Virus record (IMG/VR): IMGVR_UViG_3300036770_004857
Location: 1-24,243 of that record
Strand: one strand, 5' to 3'
DNA length: 24,243 bases
DNA from: a virus
This document shows, one piece after another, positions 4,140 to 18,600 of the stretch; position 1 is the first letter of the stretch; the number at the start of each line of letters is the position of its first letter. A model generated the notes under the pieces. It was not told the DNA's origin. It worked only from the letters and a program-made list of their open reading frames with translations, and ran no database searches. Made by a program: the position numbers and the translations under genes.

Positions 4140-4158
4140 TTTGTAATACAACGCTTTG

Positions 4159-4177
4159 TTGTGTTATAAATAATTGT
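4159..4177 (+). promoter_or_regulatory. Promoter-like repeat, copy 1 (variant)
   Basis: TTGTGTTATAAATAATTGT closely matches two further copies at 19077 and 22769. It contains TATAAATA, the -10 consensus known for T4-type late promoters. It also lies in the right half of a short hairpin (4144-4152 with 4158-4166, loop gcttt) that may terminate the upstream gene. If TATAAAT is a -10 element, transcription would start at about 4177, on top of the GTG of the next gene, so that mRNA would be nearly leaderless. Confidence 0.5.
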
Positions 4178-4382
4178 GGACCGCTCCGATATCTATACAA
4201 CCGCGACGGGTGCAGTTACTCTTGTAGTAGCTGCACCCGTATTAATTGGCATATTAGGCATCATCAATTTTGCCTGGCCTGTAATACCGATTTTGACTGT
4301 GAGCTCAGCGTGGCTTGCGGTTAAAGAAAACAATAATAAAGCCAACAACACCAATGATAGACACAAACACTCGCGCGACTGA
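4176..4382 (+). CDS. Small hydrophobic membrane protein, 68 aa
   Basis: A short, strongly hydrophobic protein: residues of about 10-30 (GAVTLVVAAPVLIGILGIINF) and 31-48 (AWPVIPILTVSSAWLAV) look like one or two membrane-spanning helices, followed by a basic and Asn-rich tail (NNNKANNTNDRHKHSRD). The start is GTG and sits at the end of a promoter-like motif. A 15-bp near-perfect inverted repeat lies inside the coding sequence at 4206-4240, which is unusual and leaves open whether this stretch also acts as RNA. Such small phage membrane proteins include holins and superinfection-exclusion factors, but no specific role can be claimed. The 3' end overlaps the next gene by 29 nt. Confidence 0.5.
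   Translation: MDRSDIYTTATGAVTLVVAAPVLIGILGIINFAWPVIPILTVSSAWLAVKENNNKANNTNDRHKHSRD
4206..4240 (+). repeat. 15-bp inverted repeat inside coding sequence
   Basis: The left arm 4206-4220 (A + CGGGTGCAGTTACT) pairs with the right arm 4226-4240 around a 5-nt loop (cttgt). All 15 positions pair, with one G-U. It begins about 30 nt after the promoter-like motif at 4159. No T-tract follows, so it is not a standard terminator. Confidence 0.7.
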
Positions 4383-5256
4383 AGCGCAACAGATAGATAC
4401 CGTGAGGAATCACGGTGCGATAAAAAAAGATAACGTAGCTCAGCCTGAGTGCTGGGCGGCATTCGCTGCAGAGTTTGCTACCGTAGAAGGTCCAGCATTT
4501 CTGCAGCCCGGTCAGTTTATACCGCTGTGGAATATTCACAGAGGTCAGTGGAAACTACAAACTCCCTTCAAACTTCATGTGACTTCTGCCTACGCTAGGG
4601 ACGGAAGATACATGGTGGTAGGAGGATCTGAAAAATTAGGATCTCACCCTAAAATTTCGGCATGGGACGCCGGAGTTCCTATGCCTGGGAAGACCGGTGA
4701 ACTGCGCAATCCAGGCGGATTGCGCACCATAGAGCTTTGCAACATACCAGCTATTATGGCTAATGGTGCAAGTTTTCAATCTAGGCGTTATCATGCAAGG
4801 ATGTTTCACGACGAGTTCGCTGAGGCCTCTTTGCATGAAGGTTGTCCTATTAGAATGATCTGTCGTTCTGATAAAGCCAACCCTAGCGGCATTCCTTTTG
4901 CTGCGCATGTCATGTATGATGTGCTTCGTGGTGACGCTACTTGCGGGTATGAGATACCCATCCCGGTGATCACATCCAATGAGGAAGAGATTATTTTGAG
5001 GGATTACCCTGAATGGGACGCAGCAATAGATGCATTTTGTGCCGAGTATAAAATTACCGAAATTGGTGTTTTGTATGCGGCACATGGCGTCGATGAGATT
5101 GAGGATAGTATCAGCAGCAAACGTCCTAATCAGGTGTTTCGCAATGCTATCATAAAAGGCGACATTGGATTCAGTACGCTGGATCCCAATCTGTACGAGC
5201 GGATGCTGCCGTTCGCTACGGGAAGTCTGGACAAGGCTTTCTTGCCAAGACTGTAG
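4354..5256 (+). CDS. Hypothetical protein, 300 aa
   Basis: Not recognised. The ATG at 4354 is preferred over the upstream TTG at 4315 because it shortens the overlap with the preceding membrane protein gene. The protein is globular in composition with several Trp, Cys and His residues (for example RRYHARMFHDEF, LHEGCPIRMIC). I see no membrane segments and no classical catalytic motif. It is the last gene before a strong terminator, so it closes the first operon of the window. Its composition is less AT-biased than that of the structural genes that follow. Confidence 0.7.
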   Translation: MIDTNTRATEAQQIDTVRNHGAIKKDNVAQPECWAAFAAEFATVEGPAFLQPGQFIPLWNIHRGQWKLQTPFKLHVTSAYARDGRYMVVGGSEKLGSHPKISAWDAGVPMPGKTGELRNPGGLRTIELCNIPAIMANGASFQSRRYHARMFHDEFAEASLHEGCPIRMICRSDKANPSGIPFAAHVMYDVLRGDATCGYEIPIPVITSNEEEIILRDYPEWDAAIDAFCAEYKITEIGVLYAAHGVDEIEDSISSKRPNQVFRNAIIKGDIGFSTLDPNLYERMLPFATGSLDKAFLPRL

Positions 5257-5336: not shown

Positions 5337-7160
5337 ATGTTTCACCATATGCAGCAAAATATTGAGCCAGAAGAAGAGTTACCAAAAGGCGTTATACTGC
5401 GCGACTTTGATGACTTCACTACCTTACGCAATCAAATTTTTGATGGTGTTAAGAATTCTATGATCAAATCATTTCCTGTTAATTATGGAAGTGTGAGAAT
5501 GGAATTACATGATGTGGATTATGATGACAGAGACGACGTGCCCGTGTCAGAGCAGAAGAAAAACCTTCTGGAAAATAAATATATAACTAAAAAGTTAAGA
5601 GGTACGATAAAATTATTTGATACAACTAATGATCAGCTTTTAGAAGAGAAGCGCATATCATTGATGAAGGTACCTTACCTCACTAACCGTGGTACATTTA
5701 TTCATGGAGGTAATGAATATGCATCGATCATGCAGTCACGCCTTCTTCCCGGGGTCTACACTCGTAGACAGGCTAACGGAGAATTAGAAACTCAGTTCAA
5801 TGTCAAGCCAGGTACAGGAATTGGTTTCCGTGTTGGTTTTGAACCTGAGACTACACAGTATAGAGTGAAGATCTCGCAGGCCAATCTGCACCTGTATAGC
5901 TTATTAAAAGATTTAGGCACAAGTGATAAGGAATTGGAAAAAGCTTGGGGTCCTGAAATTTTCAGGGCTAATCAAATGAAGTATGATGCCAGAGTATTTG
6001 ATAAAGCATATGACCGTCTTGTATCTGGAAGGCAGAAGAAATTGGATAAGACCAGAGAGGATAAAATTGCTTCTGTTCGTAATGCTTTAGAAGCAGCACA
6101 AATTCATGCTCGTGTAGCGCAGAAGAATTTGCCTAATATGTTTGACCCGAAGATTGCTTCTCAGTGGGAAGCACAATGGCAGGGTAAACAGGCTGCTGAA
6201 AAAGTTATCGATGAGATGCCTTTCAATCCTGACTTAGAACCCGAGCAGGTCTATGAGAATTATTTTGATGAAGACGAAGGTGTTAAATCAGCTGCAGACA
6301 TGCAAGCATTAATGCAGGCACGCAGACACAGTTCCCAGGCTAAAGAAGAATATAAAAAGAAAACAGCTATTATGGCTGCAGCTTTAGCTCGTTATCCTGA
6401 AGAATTCATTGTTGACCAAAATGGACGGATGTCAGGTATTACTCATTTACCTACAGGTTTTAGAATTCATGTTCCTAAAGAAATTATTCCTCAAGGCGTG
6501 AAGCGTGTGTTCCAGGAGGACGAAGAAGATGTAGAAACAAACAAAGAAGCTGCCTGGCAAAATGTACCTAAAAAAGTATTAGATGCTATCTTAACTGGTA
6601 ACAAAGATTTATTGCAGCAATTAGGAAGAAGAGGCGGACAAGTAGCTGCTAAAGTAAAAGCTAATAAAAAATTAATGATGCAGAAACAAATGGATGAGCA
6701 TTTGCAACATCCTGATGTGCAGCATTTTTTATCTATTTTAGAAAAGGATGCTTCTACCAATGAAGATTTTATTCCAGATTATAGCCCTGAAGATATTCAG
6801 GACGCATATAATGCTATTTACGGGCACTACGGTCCCCGGTTAGCTTCTATGGATAAATGGCCAGAAGAATGGATTAAGAGTGATGTTGATCCGATGGGCT
6901 GGCTCCAGTGGTATGAACAATATAAATCTGGGCGTAGAACTGAGGATGACGAAAGGCAAATCAAGAGATGGAAGTCTTTTAAAGCCAGACATGGTTCTCA
7001 GTTTAAAAAGAACCCGACTCCTAGACGTGCTTTTGCTTTGCGTAACTGGGCTATCGATCCTTTAAAACTCATTGAAGATGAAGAAGTGCGTGGACAGCTA
7101 GCGCAAGCTATGGAATCTTATAAGCAACAAGCCTGGGATAAATACAATAAAGAAAAATAA
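5337..7160 (+). CDS. RNA polymerase beta-subunit-like N-terminus fused to a GRR-type domain
   Basis: Residues of about 40-195 follow the order of the bacterial RpoB N-terminal protrusion: FPVNYGSVRMELHDVDYDD, then KLRGTIKLF, then VPYLTNRGTFIHGGNEYAS and SRLLPGVYTRR. The last two match the conserved RpoB stretch 'P.MT..GTFIINGTERVIVSQL.RSPGV'. GFRVGFEPETTQYRV then resembles RpoB 'FEFDPKDNLFVRIDRR'. The catalytic half of RpoB is absent. The middle is charged and helical. Residues of about 515-570 form another conserved-looking domain (DPMGWLQWYEQYKSGRR, then DDERQIKRW), resembling a Trp/GRR/RQI-rich domain I recall from hypothetical proteins. The gene opens the structural module after a terminator. 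It could be a split beta subunit or a repurposed virion protein. The RpoB similarity is clear; the function is unknown. Confidence 0.75.
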   Translation: MFHHMQQNIEPEEELPKGVILRDFDDFTTLRNQIFDGVKNSMIKSFPVNYGSVRMELHDVDYDDRDDVPVSEQKKNLLENKYITKKLRGTIKLFDTTNDQLLEEKRISLMKVPYLTNRGTFIHGGNEYASIMQSRLLPGVYTRRQANGELETQFNVKPGTGIGFRVGFEPETTQYRVKISQANLHLYSLLKDLGTSDKELEKAWGPEIFRANQMKYDARVFDKAYDRLVSGRQKKLDKTREDKIASVRNALEAAQIHARVAQKNLPNMFDPKIASQWEAQWQGKQAAEKVIDEMPFNPDLEPEQVYENYFDEDEGVKSAADMQALMQARRHSSQAKEEYKKKTAIMAAALARYPEEFIVDQNGRMSGITHLPTGFRIHVPKEIIPQGVKRVFQEDEEDVETNKEAAWQNVPKKVLDAILTGNKDLLQQLGRRGGQVAAKVKANKKLMMQKQMDEHLQHPDVQHFLSILEKDASTNEDFIPDYSPEDIQDAYNAIYGHYGPRLASMDKWPEEWIKSDVDPMGWLQWYEQYKSGRRTEDDERQIKRWKSFKARHGSQFKKNPTPRRAFALRNWAIDPLKLIEDEEVRGQLAQAMESYKQQAWDKYNKEK

Positions 7161-7165
7161 TACTT

Positions 7166-8515
7166 ATGCCAGAAAGTAAAGATTTCAATTTATCTGATTA
7201 CATTACATTATCTCTGCCTGTAGTTGGAGATCAACTGTGGGCATTGAAACGTAAGCTTTTGGGGCAGAATACATATACTACAGCCATTGATGCTGCCATT
7301 CGCGGCGATTCACATGGTGTATCTAAAATATCGCCTTTATTAGTGGCAGGGCTTATTGCTAGTCAAGGTCACAAACTTCCTGGCATGTTACCAGGTTCAG
7401 AGTTTAGAAAATTTTTACGTCCTATGATAGGACGTACTGGCACTAGAGTGTTTGGCGCTAAAGCAAAACCTATACTTGCTTCTATTTTATCCATACCTGC
7501 TACGCAAGGTTTAGTTAGTGGCGAGTACACCAGAAAAGCTTTACAAGATAAATCCGCAAGTTTTTTAGGTATTGAAACGGAAGAAGCTAAAAAGAAAAGA
7601 TTAGCAGAGGCCAATTTGGCTGCGGCTTTGACGTCTGCGGGTATTCCAGCTGCAGCGGCGCAGGCGCATATGAAAGTATTAGTTCCTAATTTATATAAAA
7701 ATGTAGAGGATACATTAGACCCTAAACAAAAAGCTATTTTTGATCGTTTCATCAGACGTAAAGGATTTCAGACCGATGATTTTGGAGAGATGGTAGATGA
7801 AATCAAAACTAAGGATTTCAGCCGGGCCACGGCACAAGCGATGAATGCAGCTAAACAAAGAGCTAAATTATTAGGCCTGAATGTGGATTTTGAAGAGCTA
7901 ATGAGAGCTTCTAGCTCGATAGCAAATAATAAATATAATTCCTTTGGTGCTTTAAGTGATAGTTTAAAAAATATGTTAAGGTCGTCTGGACCTTTTTTTG
8001 CACCCAAAGATAAAGGTATCTTTGGTAAGTTATTAACTGCAATAGCTGACAAAGGATCTTCTAAAACTAAAGGGGTAAAAGGTTTTATTAATATGCCTAA
8101 AGAGTTTTTTGATAATTTAGGCGCTGCAGGTAATCCTTTAAAACCGGGAGTGTTGGCACACGAAGTGGGCCATGGTGTTGGTCCTTCAGTTTATATCAAG
8201 GGCTTAACTCGCCGTTTTTCGCAATTAGCGCCTGCTCTAGCTACAGGTAATATATTATTTACCAATGATGAAAATACTGCTAGAAACTCTGCTTTAATTT
8301 CTCCTTTGTTAAGTGCGCCTTTACTCGCTTCTGAATTTGATGCTTCTATGCGAGGATCTAATATTTTGAAAAAGTTGACTAAAAGTAATCTGACTAGGCT
8401 GCAAAGACTTTCGCCTTTCGTAGGCTTACCTACTTACGCCGCATTTGCTACCTCTCCGATACTCGCATATTTAACAAAAAAGAAAATGGATGGCTTTGAT
8501 AAGAAACAGGCATGA
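7166..8515 (+). CDS. Membrane-associated zinc metallopeptidase-like protein
   Basis: A 449-residue protein with a zincin signature: LAHEVGHG gives H332, E333 and H336, and ASEFDASMRG supplies E390 as a plausible third ligand about 54 residues later, the arrangement seen in M48-like gluzincins. Hydrophobic stretches lie around residues 55-66, 100-115, 375-390 and 418-436 (FVGLPTYAAFATSPILAYL), so it is probably membrane-associated or crosses the membrane during ejection. It begins 5 nt after the RpoB-like gene and overlaps the next gene by 4 nt (ATGA). Its place in the structural module suggests a virion protease, for prohead maturation or envelope passage. Prohead proteases are usually serine enzymes, so envelope processing seems at least as likely. 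Confidence 0.65.
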   Translation: MPESKDFNLSDYITLSLPVVGDQLWALKRKLLGQNTYTTAIDAAIRGDSHGVSKISPLLVAGLIASQGHKLPGMLPGSEFRKFLRPMIGRTGTRVFGAKAKPILASILSIPATQGLVSGEYTRKALQDKSASFLGIETEEAKKKRLAEANLAAALTSAGIPAAAAQAHMKVLVPNLYKNVEDTLDPKQKAIFDRFIRRKGFQTDDFGEMVDEIKTKDFSRATAQAMNAAKQRAKLLGLNVDFEELMRASSSIANNKYNSFGALSDSLKNMLRSSGPFFAPKDKGIFGKLLTAIADKGSSKTKGVKGFINMPKEFFDNLGAAGNPLKPGVLAHEVGHGVGPSVYIKGLTRRFSQLAPALATGNILFTNDENTARNSALISPLLSAPLLASEFDASMRGSNILKKLTKSNLTRLQRLSPFVGLPTYAAFATSPILAYLTKKKMDGFDKKQA

Positions 8516-9237
8516 AAAGATCACAAGTAGACGAAATCCTTTCAAAAGTCAAAAAACAAGCCTCAGCCGTCGCTAAGGTTCGTTCTATTCTGCCTAATCG
8601 TAAAATTGATAATAATGACAATGGTATCCCGGATGACGAAGAGGAATATGTTCCTGTAGGTTTAAAGGGTTTGGTATCTGCTTCTCAGAAGCTTCTTGCC
8701 ATTAATCGGGGATTGGATAAACCCGATGAACGTGATAGTTTATTATTTAAACGAATCCTCACCACGGACAGATTATTATCTGAACGTGTAAGACTTGATA
8801 GTGACAGAGTGCGCGGAGCTATGCTTCCACTAATTGCCCGGCACAAGAATCTTAAAGCTGTAGGTCCTTTTGCATTTGATTCCTACATGGAGAAGTTCCT
8901 GATCGGGAATCCTTTGTCTTCTCCCTTGGAAGAAATTAATCCGCTGCATCTGTTAGAGCAATCCAGAAGAGCTACCCAGATGGGTCCGGGAGGTATTGGT
9001 ACTGATAACGCCATTACTGAAGACATGCAGGCTATTCGGACTGATCAGTTTGGATTTCTGTCTAGCTTGGAGGGTCCAGAAAGCGAGAAGATTGGTATCG
9101 ATACAAGAATGGCCTGGGGATCTAAAATTGGGTCTGATGGTAAACCTTATCAGAAATTTTATAATCGTAAAACAAAAAAATACCAGTGGATGAGTCCTGA
9201 AGATCTTGATGGTCTCACTGTAAAACTCCCGGATTAA
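8512..9237 (+). CDS. Hypothetical structural-module protein, 241 aa
   Basis: Not recognised. The N-terminus is a basic amphipathic helix (KRSQVDEILSKVKKQASAVAKV), followed by an acidic segment NDNGIPDDEEE that resembles short calcium-binding repeats of the D-x-N-x-D-G type. The C-terminal end (GSDGKPYQKFYNRKTKKYQW) is basic and aromatic. There are no membrane segments. It starts on the ATGA overlap with the metallopeptidase-like gene and ends one base before the lysozyme gene, so the three are probably translated together. A tail or baseplate role is plausible from position only. Confidence 0.65.
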   Translation: MKRSQVDEILSKVKKQASAVAKVRSILPNRKIDNNDNGIPDDEEEYVPVGLKGLVSASQKLLAINRGLDKPDERDSLLFKRILTTDRLLSERVRLDSDRVRGAMLPLIARHKNLKAVGPFAFDSYMEKFLIGNPLSSPLEEINPLHLLEQSRRATQMGPGGIGTDNAITEDMQAIRTDQFGFLSSLEGPESEKIGIDTRMAWGSKIGSDGKPYQKFYNRKTKKYQWMSPEDLDGLTVKLPD

Positions 9238-9238
9238 A

Positions 9239-9946
9239 ATGAATAGTTTAGATAAATTAGCTTTAAGTGCGCATATTATTAAGAAAGCGTATGCTGGTTA
9301 TTTTCCGCCAGCTCAACAACCTGCCTCTAAGGTGCAGCCTGTGCCTAAGGCTATCCCAATTTCTGTTGCCACTCCTGTACCCAAAGCTATTCCAATTTCT
9401 GCGGCGAAAGTTGCACCGCCTCCTTCTAAGGTTACGGCACAGCCAATGATGTCTCCTTACCAGCCTATCCTTGATGTAATACGTAAGGGCGAGTCTAACG
9501 TAGCAGGGTATGATACAATGGTAGGAAGTAATAAGCCTTTCGGTCTTACGAATAAAACTTTACAGCAAGTTTTAGATTTGCAAAAACAAAGGCTGAAAAC
9601 TCACGGCGGTACTGCCGCTGGAGGCTATCAGATATTAAATAAAAATTTATTAAATTTAGCCAAACAGCATAAACATGATTTAAATAAAACGCTGTTTGAT
9701 CAAGCTACACAAGATACTTATGCTAAGAGTTTGATGGATCGGCGAGGGTTTAAAGATTATTTAGCTGGCAAAATAACTCCGGATCAAATGCGTATTAATT
9801 TAGCTAAAGAGTGGGCGGCACTACCTGCTAAAGGAGAGCAATCGTATTACCATGGTGTCGGTAATAACGCTGCCAGAATTAAGGCCAAAGAAATTAATGA
9901 CGCTATACAAAAATCCTTAGAACTACACTCTAAATCCTTACAGTAG
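9239..9946 (+). CDS. GH104-type lysozyme with N-terminal tag
   Basis: Peptidoglycan-cleaving enzyme resembling the lambda R endolysin family (lytic transglycosylase, GH104). Matching features: ILDVIRKGES (catalytic Glu85), GYDTMVG, GTAAGGYQIL (residues 124-133; lambda R has a similar GAGRYQLL), a QAT/DTYAKSLMDRRG segment, and KEWAALPAKGE near the end (lambda R: IWASLPGAG). Before the enzyme, residues 1-18 form a tag shared with two other proteins (LDKLALSAHIIKKAY), followed by a Pro/Ala/Lys linker of about 50 residues containing VPKAIPIS twice. There is no signal peptide and no adjacent holin. Sitting among structural genes and carrying the tag, it is more likely a virion-associated muramidase for entry than the lysis endolysin. 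Confidence 0.8.
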   Translation: MNSLDKLALSAHIIKKAYAGYFPPAQQPASKVQPVPKAIPISVATPVPKAIPISAAKVAPPPSKVTAQPMMSPYQPILDVIRKGESNVAGYDTMVGSNKPFGLTNKTLQQVLDLQKQRLKTHGGTAAGGYQILNKNLLNLAKQHKHDLNKTLFDQATQDTYAKSLMDRRGFKDYLAGKITPDQMRINLAKEWAALPAKGEQSYYHGVGNNAARIKAKEINDAIQKSLELHSKSLQ

Positions 9947-9974
9947 AGAATTTATTAGTGTTTTTATAATCCTC

Positions 9975-10003
9975 TTGACTTAAACTCTCATATACATTTT
10001 ATT
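9975..10003 (+). promoter_or_regulatory. Possible sigma70-type promoter
   Basis: TTGACT (9975-9980), a 17-nt spacer and TTTATT (9998-10003) lie in a 67-nt gap ahead of the gene at 10014. A similar TCTTGA-TTAA sequence lies in the next gap (10577) and TTGTCT at 14874. The -10 match is weak. Confidence 0.35.
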
Positions 10004-10013
10004 ACTTTGTATC

Positions 10014-10568
10014 ATGAAATCATCTGACAAGCTTTTAGCTTCTTCTTATTTAATTAAACGCGCTTATGCCAATTACCTAGAAATGGGACGACAAATAGGT
10101 GGAAGACCTGCCGCGCCTGCAGTTGATAACAATCAACCTGCACGCGCGTTTGGCGGCTACTTCACTGGCGGGCGTTTACAAGAAGGCCCCTCGCCAGCTG
10201 GCGCTAAAGCCTATGACCCTATGAACGTAATGGGACTTTTTAATTCGGCCCCTGCTGCTGCCGAGGCTCCCGCCCCTGCGGCTACTACCGCTCCTGAGAG
10301 AGGACCTATTCCTACAATTAGCGCCACCCCTTCGATGATGATGCCTACGGATGCAAAGCTCATGCCTAAAGCACAACCCGCTGCTGCAGGTAAAGCAGAC
10401 CTCAATAGTGTGTTTGCAAAATTTATGGGTTCTAGCTTTGATCCTAAAAGTAAATTAGATAGATCAAAGATGAAGTATCTTCAGACTTTAGCGGATCAGG
10501 GAATTGATTTATCTAAAGCTAGAGCTAGCGATATCTATGACACTCGTCGCGGCTACGGTAAATGGTAA
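10014..10568 (+). CDS. Tagged Pro/Ala-rich protein, 184 aa
   Basis: Residues 1-17 (MKSSDKLLASSYLIKRA) align without gaps with the N-termini of the lysozyme at 9239 and the small protein at 14908. The centre (about 50-125) is low-complexity Pro/Ala with scattered Met. The C-terminal 55 residues (DLNSVFAKFMGSSFDPKSK, then KMKYLQTLADQGIDLSKARASD) are charged and helical and look like a small folded domain. No enzyme motif is present. The architecture of tag, flexible linker and compact domain parallels the lysozyme, which suggests that both are delivered to the same virion compartment. The family is not recognised. Confidence 0.7.
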   Translation: MKSSDKLLASSYLIKRAYANYLEMGRQIGGRPAAPAVDNNQPARAFGGYFTGGRLQEGPSPAGAKAYDPMNVMGLFNSAPAAAEAPAPAATTAPERGPIPTISATPSMMMPTDAKLMPKAQPAAAGKADLNSVFAKFMGSSFDPKSKLDRSKMKYLQTLADQGIDLSKARASDIYDTRRGYGKW

Positions 10569-10576
10569 ATTATCTC

Positions 10577-10604
10577 TTGATTAAGCGACAAAACACAATA
10601 GAAT
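10577..10604 (+). promoter_or_regulatory. Possible sigma70-type promoter
   Basis: TTGATT (10577-10582), a 16-nt spacer and TAGAAT (10599-10604) lie in the gap before the ATG at 10615. The predicted transcript would have almost no leader. Moderate match only. Confidence 0.35.
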
Positions 10605-10614
10605 CTATAACACT

Positions 10615-10803
10615 ATGCCAAACGAAATCACTCCTGAATTAATCCGTCAAGCTAAGTACGAAGGCTTTATTCGTCATACTTCCTCTATGTACGATAAAGA
10701 AACTACTGCTCAAAAATTTGCTGACTATGTTGAAAAAGACAAAGCCAGAGAAAATAAGTTTGTAGAACTTCGTGGCAACATCCTCGAAGGTTTACAATCA
10801 TAA
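10615..10803 (+). CDS. Small acidic/basic helical protein, 62 aa
   Basis: A 62-residue, mostly helical, highly charged protein (ITPELIRQAKYEGFIRHTSSMYDKETTAQKFADYVEKDKARE). It has no cysteines, membrane segment or known motif. The central part could be a short helix-turn-helix-like pair, but there is too little to assign. It is followed directly by a perfect 14-bp hairpin, so it may be a single-gene unit with its own promoter-like sequence upstream. Confidence 0.6.
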   Translation: MPNEITPELIRQAKYEGFIRHTSSMYDKETTAQKFADYVEKDKARENKFVELRGNILEGLQS

Positions 10804-10820
10804 ACTAGATGAATTTTTTT

Positions 10821-10858
10821 ACCTCCGTGGTAGAGTATATCTACCACGGAGGTTTTTT
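10821..10858 (+). terminator. Perfect 14-bp hairpin with T-tract that also holds the next RBS
   Basis: ACCTCCGTGGTAGA (10821-10834), loop GTATA and TCTACCACGGAGGT (10840-10853) continue into six T. This is a textbook intrinsic terminator for the gene ending at 10803. The right arm also contains GGAGG six bases before the ATG at 10859, so the hairpin would hide the Shine-Dalgarno site of the next gene by pairing it with ACCTCC. Confidence 0.85.
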
Positions 10859-11245
10859 ATGCCCAAATCCACATCTAAAAAGTCTCATAAACCTGCGCTT
10901 ACCAAAGTTAAGATAGTAGAGACTAAGATAGGGCATAGGAAGGCCCTGGGGCTTTGGGAAAAAATCAATAAGAATACAACGCGTATTACTATTGATACTC
11001 GGTTAAAGGGTTTCCAGCGTTTGTTAATTGTACTGCATGAATCTTTGCATGAGATATGTCCTGACTGGACAGAAGAAAAAGTTGTTTCAGTAAGTGAATT
11101 TTTAGCTCGCATACTTTGGGAATGTGACTATAGACATGTGGATCACTCTGGCGAGGCTAAGCCTTCTTATAAAACACCGATTAAAAAGAAGAAAAAATCT
11201 GAGAACAAAAATAAAGAGCCATGCGACAAAAAGAATCAAAGTTAG
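10859..11245 (+). CDS. HEXXH metallopeptidase-like protein, 128 aa
   Basis: Small protein with the motif LIVLHESLHEICPDWTEEKV: H60, E61 and H64 fit a zincin active site, and E73 or E80 may be the third ligand. Phage proteins of this size with HE-x2-H followed by P-x-x-x-E are often grouped with ImmA/IrrE-like or SprT-like domains. The C-terminus is Lys-rich (KKKKKSENKNKEP). I chose the ATG at 10859 because GGAGG lies six bases upstream; a longer in-frame start at 10772 would lie inside the preceding gene and read through the terminator hairpin. The end overlaps the next gene by 25 nt. The substrate is unknown. Confidence 0.65.
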   Translation: MPKSTSKKSHKPALTKVKIVETKIGHRKALGLWEKINKNTTRITIDTRLKGFQRLLIVLHESLHEICPDWTEEKVVSVSEFLARILWECDYRHVDHSGEAKPSYKTPIKKKKKSENKNKEPCDKKNQS

Positions 11246-11922
11246 GACCCTATGCCACGCCAGCGCAGACGCAGCGATGGATTAAGTGTTTACTTAGCTG
11301 GGCTAAGATCAATGATAAGTCGCATACTGACATATCTAATATGCTTGGTTACTCAAGCAGATCCGGGTGGTATCGCTTGTTGCAGGGTGTAAATAAAAGA
11401 GCGCGCCTAGCTTTAATCCGTAGTTCTACGCAGCAGCTGGGGTTAGATTCTAATTTTATTAATGGTATTTATGACTTCAAAGCTAAGTTCTCTGAAGCTA
11501 GAAATATTTTTACTGATTTTAAAGAACTATACGCGCAGTACCGTAGCCAGGGAAATCAGTATCAGGCATCCCAGATTGTACGTAAAGCAGCCATGTTTGT
11601 TTATGAGACTCTTGTGCCTAAAGATATGCTTTTGAATCTTGAGTTTACGAATAGACAAAATCAATATGAGACGACCAAGATCACCTGCAGCCCGGACGAA
11701 GTTAATTTCTATGACATAGTTGTGTTTGGGGGTCCTATATGTGTCATGTTTACGCTGTCCAAAAAAGTTGGTAGTGCAGATATGCCTATCATGGAAGGTG
11801 ATCTTGATATCCACGCAGTCAGTGCTATTAAACACCAAGTGTCTGTCGGAAAGAAAAAACATTATAAGTCACAAAAGAGCATTGCTAAGTTTGAGGACAA
11901 TGCTAAAAAATTTGCTATATAA
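11221..11922 (+). CDS. HTH-domain protein, 233 aa
   Basis: Residues of about 20-65 (QRWIKCLLSWAKINDKSHTDISNMLG, then SGWYRLLQGVNKRA) read like an XRE-type helix-turn-helix: a first helix, 'HTDISNMLGYSS' as the turn region, and a recognition helix. The remaining 165 residues are not recognised and contain aromatic-rich helical segments. It may be a phage transcription regulator. In the middle of a structural module it could alternatively be a DNA-binding virion component. It overlaps the HEXXH gene upstream by 25 nt and is followed after 2 nt by the next gene, so all three are probably co-translated. Confidence 0.6.
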   Translation: MRQKESKLGPYATPAQTQRWIKCLLSWAKINDKSHTDISNMLGYSSRSGWYRLLQGVNKRARLALIRSSTQQLGLDSNFINGIYDFKAKFSEARNIFTDFKELYAQYRSQGNQYQASQIVRKAAMFVYETLVPKDMLLNLEFTNRQNQYETTKITCSPDEVNFYDIVVFGGPICVMFTLSKKVGSADMPIMEGDLDIHAVSAIKHQVSVGKKKHYKSQKSIAKFEDNAKKFAI

Positions 11923-11924
11923 TT

Positions 11925-12521
11925 ATGTCTCAGAGTATTGATACAGGCGTAGAAAGAACCCCTCCAGCGGTGGCTGCTATGAAAAGTTTCAAAGAGAAAC
12001 TTTTACAAGGCCATAAAGTGAAAGCATCGCAATTTGGAATTGAGTTGCCGACTATGACAACTCAAGAGAATGTGGCTTATGACGTTGAAGACACAGAGCA
12101 AGATGTTGGCTTTGATAACGAACTTACCGCAGGCGAATCAAATGTAGGCGAAGATGATGAATTGGATTTTTCTGCGGCTATGATGCCTTCGCCCGCAAAG
12201 ATTATTAATAAAGATATTTCAAGTAAAGATCCTATTCAGATGCTAGCCAGTTATCTTGAGCAGACCCCTGCTAAGGAAGATCTAAAAATAGTTGGTCCCT
12301 TTGGTAAGCTTGGGTTTAAAGCTTTAAACGTTAGTATTACCGATTTTGGTGTAGCTTTCATAATTAAAAAAGATGCTATTCAGTTTGAGCCAAATATAAA
12401 TACAGAATTGACTATACAATATCGAGGTCAGGACTATTCTGTAATTTATGCAGGAGGGTTCTTTACTTTTCCCAAAATACCTTTTACATTTGTATCCTTC
12501 CTGCGAGTTCAACCTGAATAA
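11925..12521 (+). CDS. Hypothetical structural-module protein, 198 aa
   Basis: Not recognised. The first 100 residues are acidic and apparently disordered (VEDTEQDVGFDNELTAGESNVGEDDELD). The last 90 look like a compact beta-rich domain (LKIVGPFGKLGFKALNVSITDFG, ending PKIPFTFVSFLRVQPE). There are no membrane segments or cysteines. It starts 2 nt after the HTH gene and ends 2 nt before a tiny Cys-rich gene, just upstream of the portal. A head or neck accessory role fits the position; this is inference. Confidence 0.65.
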   Translation: MSQSIDTGVERTPPAVAAMKSFKEKLLQGHKVKASQFGIELPTMTTQENVAYDVEDTEQDVGFDNELTAGESNVGEDDELDFSAAMMPSPAKIINKDISSKDPIQMLASYLEQTPAKEDLKIVGPFGKLGFKALNVSITDFGVAFIIKKDAIQFEPNINTELTIQYRGQDYSVIYAGGFFTFPKIPFTFVSFLRVQPE

Positions 12522-12523
12522 TT

Positions 12524-12688
12524 ATGATAAAAGAAGGCGTAGTAAAATCTGATAAAACACCTTGTCCCATAACAGGTAAGGTGTGCAATTGCTCGCACCC
12601 TGATAATGAGTGTGAAATGAGCAAGGGTAAAATTGCTTCAGCTTCTGAACTTGGTGCCATGCTCGGCGGGGAAGACAATAACGAATAA
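12524..12688 (+). CDS. Tiny four-Cys protein, 54 aa
   Basis: A short gene of 54 codons starting ATG two bases after the previous stop and ending 11 bases before the portal gene. It holds four cysteines in a compact block (CPITGKVCNCSHPDNEC; Cys14, 21, 23, 30) with an intervening His, which could bind a metal. The C-terminal part is acidic (GGEDNNE). Its placement exactly between two genes, without a gap, supports it being real. The function is unknown. Confidence 0.6.
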   Translation: MIKEGVVKSDKTPCPITGKVCNCSHPDNECEMSKGKIASASELGAMLGGEDNNE

Positions 12689-12699
12689 ATTAAATTCTC

Positions 12700-14511
12700 A
12701 TGGTTAACTATCCCGGCGACAATGACGCATTTGCAATTTGGACAGGTAAGAACCGAGTCTTTGCAGATCCCTTTCTTCTTCCCAGTAGCACAGCTATTCC
12801 GACTGAACTCCAGTCAGCTCTGGACTTCTGCTTATTCCTTTATTATTTAAATCCTCTTTATCGTCGCGCTTCGACTCGAGTAATTAGTCACTTTGTTACT
12901 GACATTGATTTTGTAGGTAAAGATGGCGACCAAGATGAAAGAGATGAGTTTAAAAACTTCCTGATTAATGACCTGGATATTTTCGGGGCATTACTTGAAG
13001 TAGGTCAGGAGTGGGCGTGTTACGGTAATGCATTCCTTAGACTCCATCTTCCTTTTGACCGTGTACTTGTTGACCATAGAGACGGTAAATATAAGGAGTA
13101 TGCGCTGCCTATGTTCGGAGCGGATGTGAAGTATGATTACAAGGCCATGAAATACGATGTGCCTGATCCTACTACCTTTGACAGACCGAAGGATAAAAGA
13201 TCTAGAGTTAAACTTGATTTCATTGACCGACCGTCTCGGGATAAGTCCCGCATCAGACTTCGTAAAATCGATCCTCGTCAGGTTGTGTTGCAGCACTCAT
13301 TTATGAGTGGTAAGCAACAAATGATTTATCGTTTTGAACCTGAGTGGGTTACTATGATTAAAAATAGTATCATGTATCAGGTTAACGAGACGCCGATGAG
13401 CATGCTCAAGGCTATTGCTCTTGAACAGGACTTTCTGTTCAATGAAGGGCAAGTATTTCATTTTAAAGCGCCTACAATTTCTGGTGTATCTAACTATGGG
13501 TGGGGACTACCAGAAACCATTGCTAACTTCAGGCATATTCACCAGTTACAGGTTCTCCGTAAGATTGATGAATCGGTAGGTTTGGATTATATGCTGCCCT
13601 TCCGTATGTTTCACCCTGTACCTTCGGCGCAGGCGAGTGATCCTATGAACTATATGCTTCTGAACCGTTGGGGCTCAGAAATCAAAGAGGTGATCAAGCG
13701 TCGTCGCCTTGATCCTTTCGCTATGCATGCCCTACCCTTCCCGGTTAGTTATCAGGAGTTTGGCGCGCAGGGTAAAAACTTAGCGCCTAAAGAACTAGTT
13801 GAGTATCATAATAATGTTCTTCTTGATTCTATGGGGTATCCTGCAGAATTATTCAAAGGTTCTTTGCAGGTTCAGCAGATTCCGACAGCTGTTCGTCTGT
13901 TTGAAAATTCATTCCATTTCGTTCACCAAGGGTTTGATAGAATTGTGAAATGGGTATCTGGTCGTATTTGTGACTACATCGGGCAGCAACGCCTGGAAAC
14001 GTCGCTTCAGCTGCCTCGCCTTGCGGACGACCTTGAGCGTCAGCGTGTTTATATGCAATTGGCTGCAGGCGCTGAAATTCCTCGCTCTATTGCTTACGGT
14101 CCCTTCGGCATCAAAGACCCTGTGGAAGCTGCTAAACAGCGTGCTCAGGAAGATATCGAAATTCAGAAGGAGCAGATGAAGCTACAGTCTGATTTTCAGA
14201 GACAGCAGCAATTGGGATCTATGGATAGTATCTTGGCGCAACAAGCCCAACAAGGTGGTGGCGGTGGAAGTTCTCCTGCGGGCATGGAAGGCGCTGCAGG
14301 AGGTGGTGACATGAACCCGCTTGACATCCAGAATAAAGCTGCTGAATTGGCGCAGCAATGGTTGCAATTGCCTGTCGGTGAACGGCAGAAGCAAATGGCA
14401 GCTGTTCGCACTTCAAATCCTAACCTGCATGCAATGGCCAAGCAAAAGATGGAAGAAATGAGATCTGAAGCTGAAAGTCAAGGTAGGCAGGCGTTATCAC
14501 AACCAATGTAA
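12700..14511 (+). CDS. Portal protein
   Basis: Dodecameric head-vertex channel for DNA packaging and connection of head to tail (family knowledge). Typical portal features: an N-terminal segment NPLYRRASTRVISHFVTDIDF, followed by an alpha/beta clip/stem region (ALLEVGQEWACYGNAFLRLHLPF), a long wing region, and FHFKAPTISGVSNYGWGLPETIANFRHIHQLQVLRKID. The C-terminal 120 residues are Gln/Gly-rich (QQAQQGGGGGSSPAGM), as is common at portal C-termini. Length is 603 aa, in the range for T4-like or larger phages (roughly 500-650). The capsid and terminase genes are not in this window and are expected outside it. Confidence 0.85.
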   Translation: MVNYPGDNDAFAIWTGKNRVFADPFLLPSSTAIPTELQSALDFCLFLYYLNPLYRRASTRVISHFVTDIDFVGKDGDQDERDEFKNFLINDLDIFGALLEVGQEWACYGNAFLRLHLPFDRVLVDHRDGKYKEYALPMFGADVKYDYKAMKYDVPDPTTFDRPKDKRSRVKLDFIDRPSRDKSRIRLRKIDPRQVVLQHSFMSGKQQMIYRFEPEWVTMIKNSIMYQVNETPMSMLKAIALEQDFLFNEGQVFHFKAPTISGVSNYGWGLPETIANFRHIHQLQVLRKIDESVGLDYMLPFRMFHPVPSAQASDPMNYMLLNRWGSEIKEVIKRRRLDPFAMHALPFPVSYQEFGAQGKNLAPKELVEYHNNVLLDSMGYPAELFKGSLQVQQIPTAVRLFENSFHFVHQGFDRIVKWVSGRICDYIGQQRLETSLQLPRLADDLERQRVYMQLAAGAEIPRSIAYGPFGIKDPVEAAKQRAQEDIEIQKEQMKLQSDFQRQQQLGSMDSILAQQAQQGGGGGSSPAGMEGAAGGGDMNPLDIQNKAAELAQQWLQLPVGERQKQMAAVRTSNPNLHAMAKQKMEEMRSEAESQGRQALSQPM

Positions 14512-14520
14512 ATAAAACAA

Positions 14521-14862
14521 ATGGAAGAAACTAAAATCGACTGGGTAGATGTAATGAATACTGTAGCTTCTGATATTAATCAGAATGCAGTTAATAAAGG
14601 GTTCTGGGACAAGGAACGCAATGATGGAGAGGCAATCGCACTTATCCATTCAGAGCTTTCTGAAGCGCTTGAGGCTCTACGTCATGGCAATCCGCCAGAT
14701 GATAAAATTAAGGAATACACTGGAGTGGAAGCTGAACTGGCTGATGCGATTATTCGTATTTGTGATTTAGCGGCAGGTAGAAAATGGCGTGTCTTTGAAG
14801 CTATGGCCGCAAAGATGCAATTCAATACTACGCGAGAAAGACTACACGGTAAAGAATTCTAG
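14521..14862 (+). CDS. MazG-like nucleotide pyrophosphohydrolase
   Basis: A 113-residue all-alpha NTP-PPase of the MazG/dUTPase-like superfamily. The metal-binding pattern is visible as HSELSEALEALRHG (E-x2-E, residues of about 43-50) and VEAELADAIIRICDLA (E-x2-D). Such phage enzymes hydrolyse (d)NTPs or alarmone-like nucleotides to NMP and PPi. Single-domain phage MazG proteins are about 90-130 aa, so the length fits. It is an odd metabolic gene directly after the portal, 9 nt downstream. A perfect 13-bp hairpin follows. Confidence 0.8.
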   Translation: MEETKIDWVDVMNTVASDINQNAVNKGFWDKERNDGEAIALIHSELSEALEALRHGNPPDDKIKEYTGVEAELADAIIRICDLAAGRKWRVFEAMAAKMQFNTTRERLHGKEF

Positions 14863-14873
14863 TATATTTGTAT

Positions 14874-14902
14874 TTGTCTTAACGTCCATGATATGTTAAA
14901 CT
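14874..14902 (+). promoter_or_regulatory. Possible promoter with -10 in a hairpin loop
   Basis: TTGTCT (14874-14879), a 17-nt spacer and TAAACT (14897-14902). The -10-like hexamer lies in the loop of the perfect inverted repeat 14881-14916, so the repeat could be an operator around the promoter. Transcription would begin near the ATG at 14908. Confidence 0.35.
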
Positions 14903-14916
14903 GTATCATGGACGTT
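14881..14916 (+). repeat. Perfect 13-bp inverted repeat containing a start codon
   Basis: AACGTCCATGATA (14881-14893) and TATCATGGACGTT (14904-14916) are exact reverse complements around a 10-nt loop. Only four T follow, so it may act as a terminator for the MazG-like gene, an operator, or a translational control hairpin. The ATG at 14908 is inside the right arm. Confidence 0.75.
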
Positions 14917-15177
14917 TTGACTAAATTAGCTGCAAGCTTTTATCTGCTCAAAAGAGCGGAACAAGCCTGTATAGACAATGGGCAACCTACCCATGTCAAG
15001 CAATGGGATTCCATCAAGGGTATTCCCGGATCGGCTGGTAATCAGAATTACACAGATCCTTGGAAACCGAATCCGGACGATATGCCGGTGGATATTGGCA
15101 TCAATAATAAGCAGATGGTCACTGGTACTGGTGGCGGTGCTCTGATCTACGGAAGATATAAAAACGGAGACAGATAA
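14908..15177 (+). CDS. Small tagged protein, 89 aa
   Basis: Starting at the ATG at 14908, the first 17 residues (MDVLTKLAASFYLLKRA) align without gaps with the N-terminal tag of the proteins at 9239 and 10014. This supports this start over the ATG at 14893. The rest is a short polar segment rich in Gly, Asn and Asp (KGIPGSAGNQNYTDPWKPNPDDMPVDIG), ending GGGALIYGRYKNGDR; no enzyme domain is visible. The start codon lies within a perfect inverted repeat. One base separates it from the next gene. It may be a minor virion protein directed to the same place as the tagged lysozyme. Confidence 0.65.
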   Translation: MDVLTKLAASFYLLKRAEQACIDNGQPTHVKQWDSIKGIPGSAGNQNYTDPWKPNPDDMPVDIGINNKQMVTGTGGGALIYGRYKNGDR

Positions 15178-15178
15178 G

Positions 15179-16165
15179 ATGACCACAGACCCGTCATTAA
15201 GTGCTCTTTATAGTTCTATTGATCCTGCCATTAAAGGCAAGATCAAGAATAAAATATACGATGTCGCTACTTCGGATACTGGTACATTAACTGTTCCCGA
15301 CCCTCTTTCGCCGTATAAGAAGGATACAATTGAGATGACTCCGCTGCAGTGGATGTCAACTTATGATGAAGAATTTAAAAAGAGTAATCCGCAGTATGCT
15401 GCGTTAAACGCATATTATAATCCTTTTCAAAGTAATAGATCTTTAGGTTATGCGTTGGGTAATAATTTAAACCAATTATACAAAGGCTACGGCCCCGTCA
15501 TTGGTGATATCTTGAATAAGGGACCTCTTGCTGGTGGTTTGTTATCTATGGCTCCAGGTTTATTGCTTGGCGCAGCTGGTACCGGTATTTTAAATTTATT
15601 AACCGGTAAATCGACTACTACTGATATGCTGCGTAATGCGCTAATCGGAGGTTTGGCTACTGGTTCTTTAGGTGCGTATAGTGGGTATGTGAGAAAGTAT
15701 AAACCTCAGTGGGAAGAGCCAAACTTCAAAAAAGAACAGTGGTCTCCTGCGGAGTTACAGCAAATGCATGAATTAAATCGCGGGCAAGCTCTCGAAGGGT
15801 TGAATCAAAAAAGTGCATATGTAAAAGCGGCGATGGGGTCAGCTGAAGCGCAATCTAGAGTTGTGCAGCTAATTCAATCAGCTCCCGGGCTTTCGTTTTC
15901 TGAAAAGAGTCAGTTGATTGCAGGTGTAGCGCAGTTATCTGGTAATGAAGTATCTCAGTTATCAAATTCTTTAGTGGGTATCGGCGGCGCGGCTGTTGGC
16001 GCAATAGTGGCTAGATTTTTAATGAATAAAGGATTGATTGGTACAGTACTTGGCGCTATTTTTGGCGGTACTGTTGCCAAGTCTTTATTTGGTCCCCCTG
16101 TACCAAAAAATGATTTAGGTCAGCCATCTTTCCAGGGTAGAACTTTATTAGGACAATATCTTTAA
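15179..16165 (+). CDS. Gly/Ala-rich hydrophobic protein, 328 aa
   Basis: Not recognised by family. Three hydrophobic Gly/Ala-rich blocks could insert into membranes: about residues 117-142 (LAGGLLSMAPGLLLGAAGTGILNLL), 153-170 (NALIGGLATGSLGAYSGY) and about 270-310 (LVGIGGAAVGAIVARFL, then GTVLGAIFGGTVAKSL). Glycine-zipper spacing (G-x3-G) is evident. Between them lies a soluble helical region. Together with the following hydrophobic proteins at 16167 and 17260 it forms a run typical of phage proteins that are packed in the virion and inserted into the envelope at infection. That role is an inference. Confidence 0.7.
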   Translation: MTTDPSLSALYSSIDPAIKGKIKNKIYDVATSDTGTLTVPDPLSPYKKDTIEMTPLQWMSTYDEEFKKSNPQYAALNAYYNPFQSNRSLGYALGNNLNQLYKGYGPVIGDILNKGPLAGGLLSMAPGLLLGAAGTGILNLLTGKSTTTDMLRNALIGGLATGSLGAYSGYVRKYKPQWEEPNFKKEQWSPAELQQMHELNRGQALEGLNQKSAYVKAAMGSAEAQSRVVQLIQSAPGLSFSEKSQLIAGVAQLSGNEVSQLSNSLVGIGGAAVGAIVARFLMNKGLIGTVLGAIFGGTVAKSLFGPPVPKNDLGQPSFQGRTLLGQYL

Positions 16166-16166
16166 C

Positions 16167-16814
16167 ATGAATGATTCATCATTTTTTAATTTAGGTGCCA
16201 AGTTAGCTTCTGTAGCTTTAGAACGAGATCCTCAAAGTCTTGTTACTATGGTAGGAATGCTGTCTACTGTAGATAATCCAAAAGAAGCCAATTATGGTTT
16301 CATTCAAAAATTTGTTTGTAAGGTTGCAGCGGATGCTTTTGCAGAAACTGGACGCAAACATGAAATGGAATATCATATTTTTGAAAAATTAGCTACTGCA
16401 CCCGTATGGCATCCGCAGTTTGATAATTTTTCTAATTCTGTATTTGCTGCCTTAGGTCAAGTCGCAGCAGAGTATGAACAACAAACCAAGGAAGCTAATA
16501 CTGAAGCAATTGTAAAACAAGCGCGTAACTTCTTGCCAGATTTAATTTCCATGACCGGCAAATCAACTCCTGATATTGTCAAGAGTTTGGCTGCCGCAGG
16601 CGCGCTGGGCGGTGGTATCACTGGCGGATTATACTGGTTATTGAATAGACATTCCCAAGAAGATGAGGACGAAGCTGAAGTCATCAAAGCTAAAATTGAC
16701 TATTATAACAGAATTTCTAATGAAATTAAAAATCAGTTAGGTACAAATAAAGCAGCTCCTTCAGACATTGCGGCCCGAGTAAAAGATATTGTAAGTCAGG
16801 ATAATTTATTTTAA
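16167..16814 (+). CDS. Single-membrane-segment protein, 215 aa
   Basis: Starts one base after the previous stop. The N-terminal 150 residues are mostly helical and soluble. One glycine-rich membrane segment is visible at about residues 145-165 (AAAGALGGGITGGLYWLL), followed by an acidic, helical tail (HSQEDEDEAEVIKAK). The extreme N-terminus (FFNLGAKLASVALERD) has a K-L-A-S helix that only loosely recalls the shared tag. There are no catalytic motifs. It is probably part of the same membrane-interacting set as the genes at 15179 and 17260. Confidence 0.65.
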   Translation: MNDSSFFNLGAKLASVALERDPQSLVTMVGMLSTVDNPKEANYGFIQKFVCKVAADAFAETGRKHEMEYHIFEKLATAPVWHPQFDNFSNSVFAALGQVAAEYEQQTKEANTEAIVKQARNFLPDLISMTGKSTPDIVKSLAAAGALGGGITGGLYWLLNRHSQEDEDEAEVIKAKIDYYNRISNEIKNQLGTNKAAPSDIAARVKDIVSQDNLF

Positions 16815-16820
16815 TATTTT

Positions 16821-17258
16821 ATGCGTGATAAAAATGAGATTGACGCTAAGTTAGCGGCAATGATGGACCCGGGTGCCGGGGTGAGTGTGGATCCAAATAA
16901 AGTAGTATCTTCTTTTGGACCTTCCGAAAATAAACCAGAAGAACCTGATCCTGAATCTGATTTTACAGAAGAGCGGGATCCTAAAGGAAAAGCAATTTGG
17001 ATAAGTACACCTACATTTGAAGATCAGTATAAACGCTTTCCTGAGACCACGCGCATGGTCGGTCCGATGGTAGCTGTTTTTGATGTCGCCAATCCTGAAC
17101 AACTTAAAGAATTAAATGCTCTACTTTCAAAACAACAACCTGAACATGCACCTTCGGTTATTCTCGCAAGTCGCAAGGAAAATTTCCACGAAGGAAAATG
17201 GTTGATGCTTTTGGAATATTTTAGAGTAGAATACAAACAACTCATTACGACCTCTTAA
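16821..17258 (+). CDS. Hypothetical structural-module protein, 145 aa
   Basis: Not recognised. The first 60 residues are acidic and Pro-rich, probably unstructured (ENKPEEPDPESDFTEERDPKG). The last 85 form a likely alpha/beta fold (MVAVFDVANPEQLKELNALL, ending KWLMLLEYFRVEYKQL). There is no membrane segment. It lies between two membrane-protein genes with gaps of 6 and 1 nt, so it is co-transcribed with them. A tail-completion or chaperone function would fit the position but is not shown by the sequence. Confidence 0.65.
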   Translation: MRDKNEIDAKLAAMMDPGAGVSVDPNKVVSSFGPSENKPEEPDPESDFTEERDPKGKAIWISTPTFEDQYKRFPETTRMVGPMVAVFDVANPEQLKELNALLSKQQPEHAPSVILASRKENFHEGKWLMLLEYFRVEYKQLITTS

Positions 17259-17259
17259 A

Positions 17260-18600
17260 ATGGAAAAGATCGCTTTAACTCCGCGCAGCAAAGAATTAAT
17301 TAAAAATTACCTTATTGGTGGTGCCGCTCTTGGTGGTTCTGGTGCGCTGCTTACATCTCTGATTAATTATATTAACACTCTGAAACAGCAGGCTCCTGTT
17401 GATCCAGAAAAAGAAGATGATGATACCCTTTATTTAAATGTTAATAAATCGGCTAATGAAGGCGCGGGCGCTATCGATTTAACGGCAGGTGGTTTGGCTT
17501 TGACTGGCGGTCTTTTGTCTACACTTGGTACATATGCGCTAGTTCGTAAGTTGTATCAAAATATTAAGCGTCAGCAATTACAAGAGCAGCTTGATCAAGC
17601 GCAGCAGTCTTTTCTCTCCTCGGCGGAGCAAGAAGCGCAGACTAAGAAAGCTGAAGAAGCAGGCAAGCCTATGGGACTTGCAGAATTAACCTGGTCTGCC
17701 CCTGTGGCATTTGCTTTACTTAGCGCTATTGCAGCTGGTGCTCTTACTAACAAAGCTTTAGACAAGACCTTCCCGAGAGTTAAGAAGCCCAAGGATACTG
17801 CGCCTAAGAGAATTGTTATTCGCAAAACTCCTGAGCAGGAAATGGAAGAAGAAAAAATGGCCTACGATAAGGTAGCCGCCGCCGAACAGGCTGACGACGC
17901 TATGGAATTCCTAATTCATCTTTGCATGGGTAGTAAGTCTGCGGCGCAGTCAGAGCTGGTAGATATCGTTCATGCTGCTGCTCAAGGTAGAGGCCCGGAG
18001 TTTGTTACTAACGTCTTGGAATATGGTTTTGATGCGGCCATGGACACTATCAAAGGCGCATCAGAAATTGACATCACTCCTGAACAGAAACAATTAGCTA
18101 TTAGCTATTGTGTAAAGAGCGCAACATTAAATCCTGTAGTTTCCTTATTGGCGGCTGCTGAGTATAATGACATGGCTCCTAGATTTACTAAAATTGCTAG
18201 TCTGCAGAGTGATGAATGTTTAGATACTTTATTAAAGATTGCTGGTGCTATTGGTGCCCTCAACAGATCTGAAATGGTTAACTCTGTTTCAGATATTTTT
18301 GAAGTTACCAAACAAGCGAATGAAATGACGCTTGAGGAAATCCTGGCGTTAGTAAATAAAATGAAAGGTCAGGGCGCTCATACATCTGAAGAAGATGATA
18401 TTGAACAAAATGAAGATTTAAATTCTGAAGACAGTATTGACTCTAAAGATGAAAAGCAGGTAAACGACCGCAAGCCGTTTGCCAATCCAAATACTACGCC
18501 TGACATAATTGACGAATTATCTGAAGATGATGACTTGATTGATCAGGCAATGTCTGCTCCTGTTACTCCTGCCAAAGCAGTAGCAGCAGAAAACAAATGA
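17260..18600 (+). CDS. Gly/Ala-rich multi-segment membrane protein, 446 aa
   Basis: Hydrophobic blocks lie at about residues 17-37 (YLIGGAALGGSGALLTSLINY), 72-96 (AIDLTAGGLALTGGLLSTLGTYALV) and 147-165 (APVAFALLSAIAAGALT), separated by a Gln/Glu-rich coiled-coil-like segment (IKRQQLQEQLDQAQQSF). The C-terminal half is soluble and helical, ending in a very acidic tail (EEDDIEQNEDLNSEDSIDS). The family is not recognised. The layout of glycine-zipper helices plus a long soluble domain fits an internal virion or ejection protein. The stop overlaps the ATG of the DUF1064-like nuclease (ATGA). Confidence 0.7.
   Translation: MEKIALTPRSKELIKNYLIGGAALGGSGALLTSLINYINTLKQQAPVDPEKEDDDTLYLNVNKSANEGAGAIDLTAGGLALTGGLLSTLGTYALVRKLYQNIKRQQLQEQLDQAQQSFLSSAEQEAQTKKAEEAGKPMGLAELTWSAPVAFALLSAIAAGALTNKALDKTFPRVKKPKDTAPKRIVIRKTPEQEMEEEKMAYDKVAAAEQADDAMEFLIHLCMGSKSAAQSELVDIVHAAAQGRGPEFVTNVLEYGFDAAMDTIKGASEIDITPEQKQLAISYCVKSATLNPVVSLLAAAEYNDMAPRFTKIASLQSDECLDTLLKIAGAIGALNRSEMVNSVSDIFEVTKQANEMTLEEILALVNKMKGQGAHTSEEDDIEQNEDLNSEDSIDSKDEKQVNDRKPFANPNTTPDIIDELSEDDDLIDQAMSAPVTPAKAVAAENK

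Follow-up and report, generated by a model that had tools for sequence, protein, structure and literature searches.

In phage T4, the capsid-targeting sequence (CTS) of the internal proteins IPI–III and of Alt is described as an N-terminal propeptide of about 10–20 residues that is common to otherwise unrelated internal proteins (PMC9026906, PMC5694885); its first residues are reported to target the protein and its last ones to direct the processing (PMC9026906). Cleavage is described as occurring after Glu in T4, phiKZ, 201phi2-1 and SPN3US (PMC5694885, PMC10052503). In SPN3US, identical N-termini are reported on two diverged proteins (PMC5694885), and in phage P1 the N-terminal 30 residues of DarB are reported to send a reporter into the capsid (PMC9024508). 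More generally, the capsid protein is said to lose an N-terminal propeptide to the prohead proteases studied to date (PMC7411985).

The window (the whole stretch of DNA analysed here, 24,243 nt) covers part of the genome of a large uncultured phage (IMGVR_UViG_3300036770_004857), in which three proteins with unrelated bodies begin with a common 17-residue peptide. We consider it fairly probable that this N-terminus is a capsid-targeting propeptide, which would be cut by the head protease after a Phi-x-K-x-A motif (Phi being a hydrophobic residue).

5337..7160, plus strand: N-terminal piece of RNA polymerase beta (match to Arash gp206)
8512..9237, plus strand: RNA polymerase beta piece, Rpb2 domain 3 (Pfam E 9.8e-6; match to Arash gp206)
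9239..9289, plus strand: tag 1, residues 1–17 of the lysozyme-like protein, putative cut after Ala17 (IIKKA)
9290..9460, plus strand: hypervariable Pro/Ala-rich linker, residues 18–74 (from the alignment; low model confidence)
9461..9943, plus strand: peptidoglycan-degrading (lambda-lysozyme-like) domain, residues 75–235 (PHROG_90 endolysin, E 2.9e-16; fold matches)
10014..10064, plus strand: tag 2, residues 1–17 of the F2 protein, putative cut after Ala17 (LIKRA)
10065..10568, plus strand: F2 body, with a variable Pro/Ala-rich middle and a conserved C-terminal domain ending in GYGKW (from the alignment)
12700..14511, plus strand: portal protein
14908..14958, plus strand: tag 3, residues 1–17 of the F4 protein, putative cut after Ala17 (LLKRA)
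14959..15177, plus strand: F4 body (short polar protein)
16167..16814, plus strand: portal-side protein with Phi-x-K-x-A (3 sites vs 0.54 expected)
17260..18600, plus strand: portal-side protein with many Phi-x-K-x-A (7 sites vs 1.14 expected)

The portal is 21–23% identical to those of Salmonella phage Arash and of the Vibrio phages D69, D148 and D181, and it is 89–100% identical in six IMG/VR contigs; across portal and lysozyme, one of these contigs is a complete match to the window. The tagged genes lie between, and just past, the RNA polymerase and portal genes, and their neighbours on either side are homologues of the Arash virion proteins gp206 and gp204. The former has the top spectra count in the list of Arash virion proteins, whose authors caution that abundant enzymes may be carry-over (PMC10585845). 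The "coverage" column of that mass spectrometry (MS) table, which reads 100% even for two-peptide proteins, was left unused, and its unnumbered row was taken as gp138. The RNA polymerase piece at 8512 contains VKKQA at residues 13–17, conserved in 6/6 relatives.

The two polymerase pieces flank a protein (7166–8515) with a metalloprotease-like HExxH motif (HEVGH), for which searches of Pfam and PHROG gave no match; since other genes occupy that place in relatives, it looks like an exchangeable insertion spot. In the relative G004 the corresponding polymerase piece (L021:8945-11782) has 946 residues, vs 241 in the window, with a LAGLIDADG-like domain (E 3.5e-6), and this virion RNA polymerase probably contains an intein. 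In three relatives the portal exceeds that of the window by about 300 residues:

L029:2905-5670 (G005): long portal gene
L023:12757-15525, minus strand (G006): long portal gene
L034:9965-12685 (G007): long portal gene

Those of G005 and G006 resemble Pfam intein-splicing domains and that of G007 is LAGLIDADG-like, all below the curated cut-off; inteins are probable in the three of them.

The three open reading frames at 9239, 10014 and 14908, on which the sequence-only reading had based its proposal of a shared sorting signal, are present at these positions. The last one also has an in-frame ATG at 14893, and its homologues share the N-terminus from the 14908 start. The first 17 residues align without gaps, as that reading had stated: over residues 2–17 the three pairs score 39, 33 and 35 (BLOSUM62), with 8, 7 and 9 identities. 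A score of 33 is reached by just 3 of 103,571 other pairs, drawn within genomes from the other first-ATG N-termini of five genomes after removal of the pairs with simple-repeat strings; of these three, one is an identical repeat pair, one reflects a second shared tag, in a relative, and the third is unexplained. In G002 and G005, open reading frames made of simple repeats (of the NSVxNSVx type) also have N-termini that are near-identical, through low complexity.

The claim that the tag DNA has diverged is borne out by DNA identities of 0.45, 0.61 and 0.45 (vs 0.53, 0.47 and 0.59 for the protein) and by differing codons at 17 of the 27 identical residues. The 40 nt upstream of the tags are 0.28–0.47 identical, and upstream DNA is not common to the tagged genes. 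The bodies, from residue 21 on, are indeed unrelated, the best between-family E-value being 0.063, which is no similarity. The description of the tag as amphipathic, for its part, is not supported: the helical hydrophobic moments are not above those of shuffled sequences (p 0.37, 0.37 and 0.20). In the model of the 9239 protein, residues 3–19 form a helix.

A search of related phages for the N-terminal motif shows that the tag recurs in five related contigs, on further families. This short peptide, common to unrelated proteins as in a T4-type CTS, is found in 21 distinct instances distributed over five families (five in the lysozyme family F1, six in F2, two in F3, six in F4 and two in F5). 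Lys6 and Leu7 are present in all 21 and Ser10 in 20. The tag ends in Phi-x-K-x-A in 20/21 instances, the remaining one ending in IIKKS; residue 17 is Ala in 19/21, the other two being this Ser and a tag which has an extra residue, where Phi-x-K-x-A is retained and displaced by one. What follows the tag directly is Y, E, G, R, N, F, I, D or S, a wider choice than the S/A/G favoured in Arash head proteins. G006 also has a truncated F3 reading frame that bears the tag.

When a profile of the tag was run over seven contigs (132,130 sequence windows), the 24 matches above 13.5 were all located at most a few residues from a start codon, and the top internal match scored 13.2; the profile was built from these same tags, so that the scan shows the location of the motif and not an independent significance. 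Over 397 loci (6.9 Mb), all the N-terminal tag scores of at least 22.6 belong to contigs of the window clade, and the next open reading frame scores 17.7. The KLxxS tag was also sought in Arash, in G007–G010 and in the 397 loci, with no N-terminal match beyond the window clade, the best distant matches being internal or ordinary Phi-x-K-x-A sites.

The 9239 protein consists of the tag, a hypervariable linker and a conserved catalytic domain. That it is a lysozyme, as first read, is supported by the match to PHROG_90 (E 2.9e-16), by a model with a lysozyme-type domain from residue 75 (pLDDT mostly above 90 in the domain), and by Glu85, which is invariant in 18 sequences and presumably catalytic; no Pfam match was obtained at E 0.1. 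The same domain occurs without the tag in 75 other loci, alone or within large proteins. In the first 79 residues of F2 the only invariant positions are M1, K6, L7 and S10. Homologues of F4 were detected in the same six contigs and nowhere else. We therefore regard the tag as an added module that is under selection, since it is conserved in unrelated families next to variable linkers, and since the enzyme domain is tagless elsewhere.

The significance of the tag end came to light by comparing the tag with the head proteins of Arash, an annotated relative (210 genes translated, the very small ones mostly omitted; gp225.1 left out). The products of seven consecutive head genes, gp220 to gp226, have Phi-x-K-x-A-like sites within their first 75 residues. 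Compared to shuffled sequences of the same proteins (expected number in brackets), there are 9 sites in gp220 (0.69), 8 in gp223 (0.75), 6 in gp225 (0.49), 8 in gp242 (1.09) and 6 in gp222 (1.01). Among the residue pairs of eight Arash head proteins, K-x-A comes out of an unbiased scan as the most enriched (50 vs 21.4, z 7.8), with L-x-K next; in the remaining MS-listed proteins of this phage, K-x-A does not rank among the first eight pairs.

The same enrichment is seen near the protease gene in related phages, for which 131 protease-centred loci with a length of 15 kb or more were used: their 1,174 distinct proteins contain 2,818 Phi-x-K-x-A vs 640 expected. Like the other counts given here, these describe the phage group and are not probabilities, the related sequences not being independent. 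Nine control motifs, among them the reversed order, a shifted Lys, Arg or Glu replacing Lys, and Ser, Gly or Val replacing Ala, are found in these proteins at 0.85–1.20 of expectation. In the window, the portal-side block (15179–18600) has 8 Phi-x-K-x-A vs 2.5 expected, and the other plus-strand genes have 7 vs 8.0; of the 7 sites of the 17260 protein, 4 are conserved in 6/6 relatives and 2 in 5/6. Outside the portal block, the two longest contigs of the clade are at expectation (90 vs 88.1). In Mycobacteriophage Pleione, whose protease is a distant relative, this motif density was not seen. Another Phi-x-K-x-A-rich protein, of 350 residues, is encoded far from the portal and is a candidate further head-core protein, with 6–7 sites vs about 1 in G002, G004 and G007, and 5 vs 0.79 in G006:

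G002 96635-97687, minus strand: 350-residue site-rich protein
G004 3934-4986: 350-residue site-rich protein
G006 61102-62175, minus strand: 350-residue site-rich protein
G007 147626-148678, minus strand: 350-residue site-rich protein

The head protease of these relatives has the gp21/herpesvirus fold. Arash gp222 matches the PHROG head maturation protease (E 2.1e-6), and, for a model built on 23 aligned sequences of its family, the closest structure is T4 gp21 (5jbl, Z 11.0, 131 aligned residues, 2.8 A), herpesvirus proteases coming next; in a plain Foldseek search E-values are weak and 5jbl comes eighth (E 0.025). H96 and S148 are invariant in the 23 sequences and are probably the catalytic residues. 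In the model, residues 1–31 have a pLDDT below 50 and order begins at about residue 33, just after the site LTKVA (28–32). Phi-x-K-x-A occurs within the first 75 residues of 48/62 distinct proteases, the 14 others including late-started reading frames and near variants, and in a further set of 44, drawn from 50 of 80 loci, it lies ahead of the core in 43 (K-x-A in 44/44). The stretch of 20 positions lying 21–40 residues before the core motif accounts for 89 sites in 99 proteases; Phi-x-K-x-A is also found in the core, with 28 sites each at +20 and +80. Many of the protease sites read [LF][IV]KRA, with the same letters as the tag ends LIKRA, IIKRA and LLKRA.

The major capsid protein (MCP) is a homologue of that of phage G (6wkk) and has K-x-A at about residue 25–30 in 39/39 distinct N-termini (one 5'-truncated locus of 62, L269, being left out) and the full Phi-x-K-x-A in 34; in the MCPs of G007 and G008, K-x-A is present and the hydrophobic residue is absent. 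A profile search of the six contigs related to the window (fragments of up to 121 kb) did not find the protease or the MCP, and no DNA link between this clade and a contig with either of them was found. The protease specificity is taken from relatives with 20–44% portal identity, and it is from them that we infer that the tag end is equivalent to the head-protease cleavage motif of this phage.

These observations are consistent with a mechanism in which, during head assembly, the tag brings otherwise unrelated proteins inside the prohead, probably by binding to the core or scaffold. The cargo would comprise the lysozyme, the Pro/Ala-rich protein and the small polar protein, together with two additional families in relatives. 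KLxxS would be a candidate address and Phi-x-K-x-A a candidate cut. The head maturation protease, which is related to T4 gp21 and to herpesvirus proteases, would then cut after Phi-x-K-x-A, and removal of the tag would free the cargo in the mature head, from which it could leave with the virion RNA polymerase at ejection.

The tag could also be a signal for tail or baseplate assembly, in which case the lysozyme would act at the hub, with its tagged companions as baseplate or tail partners. Foldseek matches of the lysozyme model do include baseplate and Gp5/VgrG-type proteins, and its domain is embedded in large proteins elsewhere, being part of baseplate-type proteins in several phages. We find this unlikely, since the tag ends in a head-module motif, which reaches up to 9 sites per protein in the core cluster whereas the five annotated post-MCP genes of phage D69 hold 2 sites, both in one protein, and since the tagged genes lie between the RNA polymerase and portal genes or adjoin the portal. 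An anchor or export signal for the lysozyme, like that of SAR endolysins, is the least probable reading of all: among the relatives of the lysozyme domain there are some with a hydrophobic N-terminus or with the name SAR endolysin, but the tag is short, contains several Lys, has no visible hydrophobic stretch of transmembrane length, ends in K-x-A and is common to non-enzymes.

It may be that Phi-x-K-x-A is an element that binds the scaffold or shell and is not cut, in which case the tag would target the proteins and remain attached to them. All the support for cleavage consists of sequence statistics, and the site-rich gp220–225 are reported in purified Arash virions (PMC10585845), which is not predicted for a pure scaffold. 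Yet the motif is located where order begins in the protease model, and near the N-terminus of the MCP, where prohead proteases reportedly remove a propeptide (PMC7411985), and we hold this reading to be improbable. As for a relic of gene duplication or recombination that has lost any function, the clustering of the tagged genes, with F1, F2 and F3 side by side in two relatives, is what it would leave; the tag DNA has nevertheless undergone many synonymous changes while K6 and L7 are kept in 21/21 instances beside freely varying linkers, which makes such a relic very improbable. We therefore keep the capsid-targeting propeptide as our preferred explanation.

A second, unrelated shared N-terminus, GF[IV]xKCxxxGVDPE, is carried by several near-portal proteins of more distant relatives, G008/L036 (record 89398-92827), L035 and L385, and in most of these proteins it is followed by K-x-A within the first 45 residues. 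This suggests replaceable address labels ahead of a constant cut site. We would give about even chances to the broader proposal that uncultured phages related to Arash have a protease of gp21/herpesvirus fold with Phi-x-K-x-A specificity and cargo tags of each lineage's own upstream of the site, that is, an exchangeable label and a shared cut code.

Capsid-targeting propeptides are themselves known; what is new is the end of the tag as a putative cut site after Lys-x-Ala. We found no description of a head protease with K-x-A specificity in the literature searched, in which subscription journals are little covered. If the proposal is correct, there would be a readable processing code for a group of phages whose virion proteins mostly lack a function. 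Sequence alone would then allow the prediction of substrates, of scaffold, of propeptides and of packaged cargo, the cargo of uncultured virions included, by way of the shared cut-site code. The 17-residue address label could direct chosen proteins into these heads. Capsid-targeting peptides would have evolved repeatedly around a common protease logic, here with a specificity nearer to that of herpesvirus proteases, which cut after Ala, than to that of T4. How giant phages load internal proteins, an old question, would become directly testable, and Arash spectra already exist.

Regarding the known systems, herpesvirus assemblin shares the fold of the modelled protease (varicella-zoster virus enzyme, Z 10.3) and differs in having no cargo tag and about 9–13% sequence similarity in structural alignments. 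In P1, no consensus is reported across the Dar proteins, and the MCP is processed between E120 and S121. SPN3US and phiKZ are, likewise, large phages with a virion RNA polymerase and a gp21-like protease, but their cleavage is at A/S/G-x-E, after Glu, and most SPN3US propeptides are longer. No tag described here ends in Glu; it is therefore not the same signal as those of T4, phiKZ, 201phi2-1 and SPN3US, which are cut after that residue. The comparison with the T4 CTS, drawn in the sequence-only reading, stands in part. The sequence differs, as does the putative cleavage residue (Ala in the conserved Phi-x-K-x-A end, while T4 gp21 cuts after Glu), a lysozyme is among the putative cargo, and packaging is here predicted from the sequence. 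The likeness holds for the modular design, with a short N-terminus shared by unrelated cargo, candidate targeting residues first and a candidate protease site last, for the end in a motif of the head module, and for the place of the tagged genes between a virion RNA polymerase homologue and the portal.
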